From Thermaerobacter subterraneus DSM 13965 (GTDB lineage Bacteria; Bacillota; Sulfobacillia; Thermaerobacterales; Thermaerobacteraceae), in the NCBI RefSeq assembly GCF_000183545.2, contig NZ_JH976535.1, positions 2,109,837 through 2,173,836 on the forward strand: a DNA stretch of 64,000 bases. The letters are read 5' to 3'. This document shows positions 17,890-21,450 of the stretch, piece after piece (position 1 is the stretch's first letter; every line of letters begins with the position of its first letter). The notes under the pieces are model-generated. The model ran no database searches and was not told where the DNA came from. It worked only from the letters and a program-made list of their open reading frames with translations. The position numbers were made by a program, and so were the translations under genes.

Positions 17890-20800
17890 CTACCCGTCGC
17901 GAGTGTTGCCGCCCGGTTCCGGTTCTTCCCCCAGCGCTGCGGCCTCCGCCGGGCCCCCGTCCCCCAGGGGCGGGATCACGTCGACGCGGGCCTGGGGCGC
18001 CGCGGGCCAGCCCGGGGGGGCTGCAGCGACCACCCCGGAGCCCTCCAGGGCGGCGGCCGCCGCGTCGGCCAGGTCGCCGCCGCCGGGCAAGCCGGCGGCA
18101 CCGAACCCGCCCGGCGGCACGACCAGCCGGTAAGGCATGTAGAGGCGCAGGCGCGAGCCCTCGCCCACAGGCCACAGCCCCAGGGCGAAGAGTTCCGCCT
18201 CGATCTGCACGGGGTTGGCGTCCAACCCCCGCGACCGGCACCAGTCCCCCAGAGCCTCCAGGTCGACCACCCGGTCCGGTCCCGACCAGGAGGCCACCAC
18301 GTCGGCCAGGATGGCCCAGGCCGTCGCCGGCGTCTCCACCCACGCCGCCGGCAGGTGAACGGGGCGGCGGGGCCAGAGGCGGGTCACCGCCTGGTCCCAC
18401 AAGGCGGCCCGGGCCAGGGCGCCCCGGCCGCGACCCCCGCCGGCAGCCGCCGGTTCGTCCGCCGCGGCGGCCGCTGCGGCGCCGCTGGGCTCTCCCGCCC
18501 CGCCCGCCGGTGCCACCCGCTCCGGGACCAGCAGGGAAATCCAGGGGTCGAACCAGGCGGTAACCAGCCATTGCCGGCGCAGCCGCTCCAGCAGCTCGGG
18601 GCCCGGCTCCTCCCCCCGGGCGCCGGCGGCCCGGCGGATGCGGTCCGCCAGCCAGCCGGCGGCCTGGTCCAGGGCCGGCACGGCGGACTCCCGGTGCCCT
18701 GCGGGCCCGGTTCCGCCAGCGCCCCCGTCCCCGCCCGCGGCGGCGGCGACGTCAAGGGCCGGCCCTGCATCCCCCTGGGCCAGCTGGCGGAAGGCTCCGT
18801 GGAGCACGACGGCGTGGGCGAAGGCCGGGTCGGCCAGAGCCAGGGCGGCCAGCTGGTCGATCTCGCCGCCCGCCCGGACCCACCCGTCGTTCAGGGACGT
18901 GGCCGTCCAGGTGTCCTCCACGCCCGTCAGCCAGCCCATGGTGGCCAGGTAGGCGATGACCTGCCGGGCCTGGGAACGCTGCCGCCAGCGGCCCAGGTAC
19001 GAGGTGAGTTGGGACGTGTCGTACACGTGACCGGCCAGAAGCTCGGCCAGCAGCCCGCGTACCGCCGCCAGGTTGGTGGGGCGGGGGCCATAGGCAGGCA
19101 CCCGCACCGTCCCCGCGGACCGGGGGTCCGTCGCCAGCCACGCGGCCAGGCCGAACCGGTCCCGGCCGTAGCGCAGTACGGCGGTGTCCTCGTTGAGGGC
19201 CCGGGCCACCGTCCGCCGCGGGTAGCTGCGCACCCGCTGGACGGCCGCGACCACCTGGTCCAGGCTGGCCGGCTCCCCGGCTTCGGCCAGGGCATCGCGG
19301 CACAGCTGCGCCAGGTTCCGCTCCGGCTGCCGTTCCCAGTGGCTCAGGCCGTAAATCCCCCGGTCCACGCGGCGGAAGGGCTCCCCCGACGACAGGATGG
19401 TCAACACGTGGGTCGGCGGCATCTTCCGCCCTTCGGGCAACAGCTGGTTGACCAGCCGGGTGAGCTCGGCGTAGTGCAGGGGCCGCCCGTGCCGCTGCAG
19501 CGCCTGGTAGACGTAGTCCCGGGCCCGCATCCTTCGTCCCGCGCGCCAGTTGGCAAGGCCGTAGGTCCCGCCGGGGAAGCGGGCGAAGGAAGCCTGGGTG
19601 GTCACCACCGCCCGGGCCAGCGCCTCCGCAGGGGCGGGCAGGTCCCCCATGCCTTCCTCCAGGTGGGCGGCCAGTTCGGCCAGGGCCAGCGGGCGGCCGG
19701 CCGCCGCCAGGAACTCCTGCAGGCGCCGGGCCGCCTCCGGCAGGTGCTGGGCGATCTCCGCCGTCGACCAGGTCGACCCCGCCACCCGCCGCAGCCCGGG
19801 CGTCACGTGCACCAGCAGGCCCACCAGCCGGACCGCCTGGTCGGTCGACTCGGGCACGCCCACGGTGCCGTCCTGGCGCAGGGCCTCGGCCAGCTCGGCA
19901 GGCCCCGCGGCGCCGCAGCGGGTCGCCGCAGCCCGGACCGCGTCCACCAGCGGCTGGAAGCGCTCCAGTCGTGCCCGGGCCCTGGCGCGGCGCAGCGCCC
20001 GCCCCTGCACCACGCTGACCCACTGGCGGGTGGTCTGCCAGCGCGCGGCGATGGCCGACAGGTCGTGGGCTTCCTCCCCCAGCAGGCCGTACCGCAGGGC
20101 CAGCACTTCCCGCTCCCGGTCGGGCAGCGGCTCGATCAGCTCCTGCAGCCAGTCCTCCAGCCGGCGGGGGAACGCTCCCCTGCGGCTGCACTCCTGCCGG
20201 TACTGGTGCAGGCTTTGCAGAACGGCCGCGACGCCGCTCTCCCCGAGCCCGCGCAACCGGCGCAGCCCTTCCTGCGTAAAGCCGGCCAAGGCCCCGACGG
20301 TGTGCAGCCCCGCCCGCTGCAGGGCGGTGACGACCCGGCGCGGCAGGAGCAGGGCACCGATGGGAGCCGGATCGTCCATCAGGTCGGGGGCCAGGGGGTC
20401 GCCGGTGGCACCGCCGGGTGGCGGCAAGGGCCGGCCCGATTGCAGGGCGTCCAGGCGATGGCAGATCTCCGCCAGCGAGCGGGGCCCGAGCCCTCGCAGC
20501 CGCTGCAGCCCCGGTTCCCCCAGCTCCAGCAGCTGGCCCACGGTCTGGATCCCGGCCCGGCGCAGGGCCCGGTAGGCCCGCTGGCCCAGCCCGAGATCGT
20601 CCACGGGCCGCCGGCGAACGGCCTCGGGGAACCGCTGGGGGTCGTACCGGGTGGCCCGCGCCAGCAGCTGCCGCTGGTAGGCTCCGTCGGCCATGACCCG
20701 CGCCAGCTCGGTGACCAGGGCCAGCAGGCCCCGGGTCCCCATGCCGCGGGCGGCCAGAAGCCGCGGGTCATGCCGCCAGGCGAGATCGCCCACGGTCTCG

Positions 20801-21102
20801 TAACCCCGCTGCTGGAGCGCCAGGCGGACCCGAGGCGGGATGTCCAGCAAGTCGAGGGGGATCCCCGCCAGGCCGGTCGCCGCGGCAGCGGCGCCGGGTT
20901 CGCCTTCGGCCCCGCTCCGGTCCCCGGCCCGGTGGTCACCGGGCGAACCGGCCTGCGCCGGCTCCGGCTCCGGAGCAGGGGCCGGCCCTCCGGCGGGCGC
21001 CGCCTCCTGGGGCTGGTCCAGGCGGGGCCCTGCGCCCCCGGTGTCCGGCCGTTCCAGGTGCGGTGCGCCAGGCGCCAGGGGCCCATCAGGCGCCAGTTCC
21101 AT
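17890..21102 (-). CDS. Large DNA-binding protein with alpha-CTD-like, sigma region 4-like and HARE-HTH-like modules
   Basis: 1070 residues; not recognised as a named family. ATG at 21102 follows GGAGGGGAAAGA. Residues 1-77 are Pro/Ala-rich. About 78-300 hold three helix-hairpin-helix units like the C-terminal domain of RNA polymerase alpha; the clearest has RPVDDLGLGQRAYRALRRAG, then TVGQLLEL and LGPRSLAEI. About 318-385 match sigma-70 region 4 (EPLPDREREVLALRYGL, then TTRQWVSVVQGRALRRARAR). About 440-655 hold winged-helix units resembling HARE-HTH/RpoE-delta (YVYQALQRHGRPLHYAEL, FRRVDRGIYGLSHW). The remainder is partly disordered with helical blocks. No sigma region 2, ATPase or nuclease motif is visible. 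A role contacting promoter DNA or RNA polymerase is inference. Two inverted repeats lie upstream. Confidence 0.85.
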   Translation of the reverse strand: MELAPDGPLAPGAPHLERPDTGGAGPRLDQPQEAAPAGGPAPAPEPEPAQAGSPGDHRAGDRSGAEGEPGAAAAATGLAGIPLDLLDIPPRVRLALQQRGYETVGDLAWRHDPRLLAARGMGTRGLLALVTELARVMADGAYQRQLLARATRYDPQRFPEAVRRRPVDDLGLGQRAYRALRRAGIQTVGQLLELGEPGLQRLRGLGPRSLAEICHRLDALQSGRPLPPPGGATGDPLAPDLMDDPAPIGALLLPRRVVTALQRAGLHTVGALAGFTQEGLRRLRGLGESGVAAVLQSLHQYRQECSRRGAFPRRLEDWLQELIEPLPDREREVLALRYGLLGEEAHDLSAIAARWQTTRQWVSVVQGRALRRARARARLERFQPLVDAVRAAATRCGAAGPAELAEALRQDGTVGVPESTDQAVRLVGLLVHVTPGLRRVAGSTWSTAEIAQHLPEAARRLQEFLAAAGRPLALAELAAHLEEGMGDLPAPAEALARAVVTTQASFARFPGGTYGLANWRAGRRMRARDYVYQALQRHGRPLHYAELTRLVNQLLPEGRKMPPTHVLTILSSGEPFRRVDRGIYGLSHWERQPERNLAQLCRDALAEAGEPASLDQVVAAVQRVRSYPRRTVARALNEDTAVLRYGRDRFGLAAWLATDPRSAGTVRVPAYGPRPTNLAAVRGLLAELLAGHVYDTSQLTSYLGRWRQRSQARQVIAYLATMGWLTGVEDTWTATSLNDGWVRAGGEIDQLAALALADPAFAHAVVLHGAFRQLAQGDAGPALDVAAAAGGDGGAGGTGPAGHRESAVPALDQAAGWLADRIRRAAGARGEEPGPELLERLRRQWLVTAWFDPWISLLVPERVAPAGGAGEPSGAAAAAAADEPAAAGGGRGRGALARAALWDQAVTRLWPRRPVHLPAAWVETPATAWAILADVVASWSGPDRVVDLEALGDWCRSRGLDANPVQIEAELFALGLWPVGEGSRLRLYMPYRLVVPPGGFGAAGLPGGGDLADAAAAALEGSGVVAAAPPGWPAAPQARVDVIPPLGDGGPAEAAALGEEPEPGGNTRDG

Positions 21103-21237
21103 TCTTTCCCCTCCGTACGGGCGCCGCCCAGCGGCCGCGGGAGGCCGGCCCGGCCGCCCACGGGCCATGGAGCCGCAGGGCCGGGGGTGCCGCCGGTGCG
21201 GTGACCAGTGGGGGTCGCCACCCACCGACCGCGCATT

Positions 21238-21326
21238 TTCGACAAAACCTGTCGAACGATGGCGAAAGAGGGGGCGACCACTTATATCAATCGTGTTCGA
21301 TTGTAAACTTTTCTTGACGCTTTCAA
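21238..21326 (-). promoter_or_regulatory. Promoter/operator region of the large transcription-like gene
   Basis: An AT-rich island in a GC-rich genome. It has two perfect inverted repeats: TTCGACA-AAACC-TGTCGAA (21238-21256) and CAATCG-TGTT-CGATTG (21288-21303). On the minus strand TTTACA (21307-21302) and TATAAG (21286-21281) could be -35 and -10 with a short 15-nt spacer; TTGAAA at 21326-21321 is another -35 candidate. The second inverted repeat falls between the hexamers, as expected for a repressor site. The remaining sequence of the 436-bp gap (21103-21538) holds the acsA terminator. Confidence 0.5.
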
Positions 21327-21450
21327 CCAGAGCGGATCGCAAAAAGCCTGCCCCGCCCGACCAGAGCGGTTGGCCGGGACCATGCGAAGCAACAGAGGGC
21401 ATGATCCCGGCCGGGCGTGGCGGGCGGTGGGCTGGTCATCCGCCCTCACC

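Follow-up and report, generated by a model that had tools for sequence, protein, structure and literature searches.

A chromosomal Thermaerobacter protein combining RNA polymerase alpha-CTD, sigma region 4 and HARE-HTH-type modules is a candidate DNA-binding regulator from a rare bacterial family

The window, a 64,000-nucleotide stretch of the genome of Thermaerobacter subterraneus DSM 13965 (assembly of 2.89 Mb), encodes on its reverse strand a 1070-aa protein (17890..21102) in which three RNA polymerase alpha-CTD-like units, a sigma region 4 (sigma4) and HARE-HTH-type winged helices are joined, as assigned from Pfam matches and orthologues. The gene runs from an ATG at 21102 to a stop at 17890 and is preceded by a strong ribosome-binding site, GGAGGGGA (21107..21114, reverse strand); both the start and this site are common to the orthologues, and the coordinates and length given by the first-pass annotation are correct. 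The longest mechanical ORF has 1170 aa and begins at 21402, and its additional N-terminal part lacks conservation. The gene is confirmed as real, since orthologues in all five family genomes and pN/pS values of 0.06–0.48 in the three named modules place it beyond chance. A 949-aa antisense ORF (18355–21204, forward strand) overlaps the gene and is probably an artefact of high-GC codon structure.

Approximately 140–230 bp before the gene lies a strongly conserved block (21238–21330), TTGAAA-CGTCAA...TTTACAATCGAA...CGATTGA followed by an inverted repeat, which on sequence grounds is a possible promoter or autoregulatory site. The AT-rich conserved element TTGAAAGCGTCAAGAAAAGTTTACAATCGAACACGATTGAT (21285..21330, reverse strand) is itself a probable promoter or operator of the gene. 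Between this element and the gene sits the perfect inverted repeat TTCGACA-N5-TGTCGAA (21238..21256), the arms of which are conserved across the genus with variable spacing. A scan found no consensus sigma-70 promoter. A genome-wide operator was considered and rejected: the core of the conserved element is present once in the genome, which excludes that exact sequence as a regulon site.

Pfam identifies RNA_pol_A_CTD three times in the protein (E 8.6e-24) and Sigma70_r4 once (PF04545, E 3.2e-7). HARE-HTH scores E 0.003, which is under the Pfam cut-off; the aligned relatives from Bacillota family f99 lie above it (4e-8 to 7e-10). All three module types had been proposed in the first-pass annotation, and these matches bear them out. 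Also upheld is its statement that region 2, ATPase and nuclease families are lacking, none being detected with Pfam or NCBIfam; Sigma70_r2 has no Pfam match, and the NCBIfam sigma matches are confined to the region 4 part. The NCBIfam matches shown are to alpha subunits, sigma factors, PglW, MzaA and a few others, and they fall only over the alpha-CTD or sigma4 parts. Every recognised domain of the protein is DNA-binding and none is catalytic. Within the source genome, the alpha-CTD family comprises only RpoA and the 1070-aa protein, and HARE-HTH occurs in the 1070-aa protein alone; a paralogous delta subunit was rejected on the latter search.

Following a low-complexity, poorly conserved N-terminal tail (residues 1–77; 20872..21102, reverse strand, as are all parts of the protein given below), alpha-CTD unit 1 occupies residues 81–126 (20725..20862) and is recognised by its fold and by PF03118 at 22.7 bits, slightly below the cut-off of 23.8 in the per-genome search. 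Unit 2 (residues 162–217; 20452..20619) reaches 48.7 bits and is supported by both contact residues and fold, and unit 3 (residues 247–299; 20206..20364), which adjoins sigma4, reaches 26.7 bits with a degenerate DNA-contact set. The roles of the alpha-CTD and sigma4 contact residues compared here are established, and the alpha-CTD positions are given in E. coli numbering. Unit 2 has the best preserved DNA contacts: R265, G296, S299 and E302 are kept, K298 is replaced by R, and N268 by R. Unit 1 has an R265 equivalent and has lost those of S299, E302 and N268, and unit 3 has lost the equivalents of S299, E302, N268 and K298. Because several DNA contacts are lost from units 1 and 3, these two of the three units may serve as protein–protein or structural modules. 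The R265 equivalent is retained in all 12 alpha-CTD copies of the four proteins compared, and in each protein one copy retains more DNA contacts than the others; the contact set is nearly complete in unit 2 of the f99 protein and unit 4 of the protein from family f55.

Structure prediction, suggested in the first-pass annotation as a check, supports the alpha-CTD folds. In an AlphaFold model built on a two-sequence alignment, the three units have pLDDT of about 73–85 and the remainder is lower; Foldseek matches alpha-CTD structures with target-normalised TM-scores of up to 0.93 and an rmsd of 0.7–0.8 Å for the best, the weak E-values being due to the query being a long multi-domain chain. Confidence is low for the sigma4 and winged-helix parts, which depend on the same two-row alignment and have no fold match.

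The sigma4 module spans residues 324–373 (19984..20133, the PF04545 match), and its motif LPDREREVLALRYGL is sigma-like. Its recognition helix, TTRQWVSVVQ (residues 357–366; 20005..20034), is changed at the positions that read the -35 element and is invariant in the five orthologues. The -35 readers R584, E585, R588 and Q589 correspond to R, Q, S and V, such that RQWVSV stands in place of RERIRQ and every Thermaerobacter-family copy lacks three of the four contacting residues. The helix differs by lineage: RERxRQ in f55, in the Abditibacteriota plasmid protein P0002 and in the relative from genome G191, RARIQQ in f99, and RQWVSV in Thermaerobacter. The f55 relatives combine an intact RERIRQ helix with a near-complete last alpha-CTD. 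From this comparison of contact residues across relatives, the family resembles a set of modules for reading promoters, with a sigma4 of apparently changed specificity in the Thermaerobacter branch.

Residues 386–520 (19543..19947) form a mainly helical, less conserved linker that aligns to the post-sigma4 part of the relatives and is probably a degenerate winged helix. Winged helix 1 (residues 532–588; 19339..19509), with the motif GRPLHYAELTRLVN...FRRVDRGIYGLSHW, aligns with the HARE-HTH relatives that score above the cut-off, and winged helix 2 (residues 596–656; 19135..19317) is collinear with P0002 and with the second HARE of the f99 relatives. The HARE-HTH profile has no match among PDB sequences. 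A conserved block of unassigned fold (residues 661–770; 18793..19122) is present in the Thermaerobacter-family copies only, and with pN/pS of 0.11–0.42 its constraint is about equal to that of the named domains. By alignment and pN/pS, the rest of the chain (residues 771–1070; 17893..18792) is variable with conserved islands; AlphaFold gives residues 660–1026 a mean pLDDT of 40, too poor for use.

Each of the four genomes sampled from the genus carries an orthologue, as does the MAG ZC4RG37 from a second genus of the family, giving five of five family genomes; none was found in the other genomes of the class (154 genomes examined). The gene order acs – 1070-aa gene – phosphoglucose-isomerase-type SIS gene is kept in all five. 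pN/pS is 0.06–0.44 for the alpha-CTDs, 0.08–0.36 for sigma4 and 0.08–0.48 for the HARE part, and 0.58–0.86 for the N-terminal tail; the three modules are under purifying selection, and the gene is inherited vertically with its synteny kept. A phage origin was rejected: there is no match to phage records, and scans of viral contigs were empty or matched the sigma4 part only.

When genome contigs were scanned with the 1070-aa protein alone as query, nothing was found, and a sigma4-to-HARE profile revealed additional relatives in the phylum, present in all five genomes of f55 and all five of f99. With a profile restricted to the HARE part, 15 of 398 Bacillota genomes yield full-length relatives (families f1, f55 and f99; G191). 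Most relatives have ~580–640 aa and carry two to four alpha-CTDs with sigma4 and HARE-HTH, in some cases with all three above the Pfam cut-offs, and the order is collinear with that of the window protein, with sigma4 C-terminal to the alpha-CTDs and HARE-HTH following. The first-pass annotation had suggested searching for homologues of the same domain order, and such a search reveals a small existing family in other bacteria; uniqueness of the architecture is therefore rejected. Homology of the sigma4-to-HARE stretch extends across phyla: P0002 matches residues 315–656, and 25% of positions are identical over 375 aa (E 3e-15, a single pairwise comparison). P0002 (L049:26-1732, plasmid pIAD-21, AP024153.1) is annotated as RpoD and is of the sigma4 + HARE-HTH type rather than a full sigma factor. 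Definition of the HARE-HTH domain is credited to Aravind and Iyer (2012), whose abstract reportedly names bacterial proteins that combine alpha-subunit and sigma-factor features, which would be this family. No experimental characterisation of such a protein was found in the available literature. The 1070-aa protein is a member of a rare family already present in other bacteria, which makes it a candidate regulator of interest and not a new category of protein.

The relatives have the same three module types per chain as the window protein, which is set apart by having three alpha-CTDs, changes in its sigma4 helix and 400 extra residues at the C-terminus. With the CTD of RNA polymerase alpha, the window protein shares the fold and, in unit 2, the R265, G296 and S299 contacts; unlike the alpha subunit, it has three tandem copies and no alpha-NTD, and its alpha-CTDs are identical to the organism's own at only 13–22 of 51 residues. 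The Sigma70_r4 match and overall sigma4 motif are shared with the sigma-70 family, whereas regions 1–3 are absent and the -35 readers are replaced. The likeness to the delta subunit (RpoE) is the HARE-HTH-type winged helix; the domain occurs once in delta, a small protein that also has an acidic tail, whereas several lie inside the large chain of the window protein. PglW of type-2 BREX matches over the alpha-CTD and, according to the available text of PMC12839542, likewise has an alpha-CTD-like domain followed by three wHTH; the nuclease (NERD), kinase and iSTAND domains that this text gives for PglW are absent from the window protein.

We infer, with a probability of about 0.55, that the protein is a non-enzymatic, chromosomally fixed, multivalent DNA-binding regulator made of modules with which polymerase recognises promoters. 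DNA contacts would most likely be made separately by alpha-CTD unit 2, by the helix-turn-helix of sigma4 and by two or more of the HARE-type winged helices, such that one chain could span a composite site. The output would be transcription regulation, or the protein may be a nucleoid-associated protein acting on transcription, and specificity in Thermaerobacter would have drifted away from ordinary UP/-35 promoters. The first-pass proposal of a transcription modulator or nucleoid-type factor is plausible. The occurrence of relatives in every genome of three Bacillota families supports a regulator and fits a housekeeping or regulatory gene; no shared gene neighbours tying the three families to one process were found. 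A more specific version, which we put forward only tentatively, is that the protein, fixed in three Bacillota families, acts as a global regulator that mimics, in a single chain, the upstream promoter-recognition face of the holoenzyme (alpha-CTD beside sigma4, with HARE winged helices added), and that the Thermaerobacter branch has been re-targeted to another DNA sequence or state via the sigma4 helix change.

It is unlikely that the protein is instead an accessory factor bound to polymerase, with sigma4 docked at the beta flap, the winged helices attached to polymerase as in delta, or both, acting as a holoenzyme modulator or as a split sigma with a separate region-2 protein. The sigma-like sigma4 motif, the lack of any other HARE-HTH protein in the source genome, the winged helices of HARE-HTH type in the delta subunit (PMC3767597) and the precedent of the two-subunit sigma factor SigO–RsoA of Bacillus are consistent with such a role; the chain itself lacks region 2, however, and no partner gene adjoins it, the neighbours being acs and the SIS isomerase. 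A decoy, one of the options named in the first-pass annotation, is very improbable; it would occupy UP and -35 elements and block the housekeeping holoenzyme. UP-reading and -35-reading parts are indeed both present and adjacent, and the f55 relatives retain RERIRQ in full and their last alpha-CTD almost in full, but in the Thermaerobacter family the Q, S and V that replace E585, R588 and Q589 are invariant; with three of its four -35-reading residues lost, the recognition helix speaks against a decoy aimed at ordinary -35 elements.

Relatives in BREX-like operons and the alpha-CTD/winged-helix part of PglW suggest a role in defence, as a sensor of foreign or modified DNA; we regard this as unlikely for the 1070-aa gene. 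The neighbours of the distant homologue P0002 match Eco57I methylase, DUF4007, BrxC/SspC-like ATPase, PglZ and BrxL models, which together indicate a BREX-like operon. The 1052-aa relative in G191 (L075:1930-5085, contig G191:C21; sigma4 + HARE-HTH) adjoins PAPS reductase and DUF4007 and shares its contig with PglZ, a gene set that corresponds to that described for type-4 BREX in the available text of PMC12839542, where this type of protein is not named as a component. The alpha-CTD stretch of the window protein also matches PglW at 3.4e-12. Against a defence role, PglZ is absent from the five family genomes (G000–G004) and from the three f55 genomes tested, whereas the same search is positive in G191 and in control genomes; none of the flanking proteins tested is a recognised defence gene; and the gene is fixed in three families, unlike most defence genes, which tend to be patchily distributed. 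With PglZ absent from the genome, BREX membership of the 1070-aa gene is not supported, and a BREX role is unlikely given that none of the five family genomes has PglZ.

If the favoured DNA-binding regulator binds composite promoter-like sites, the DNA-reading parts of polymerase would be reusable as a regulator outside polymerase. As the module set is shared with defence operons, it could also inform how BREX-like systems locate DNA. Comparing branches whose sigma4 helix is intact (RERIRQ) with those in which it has changed (RQWVSV) offers a ready natural experiment.
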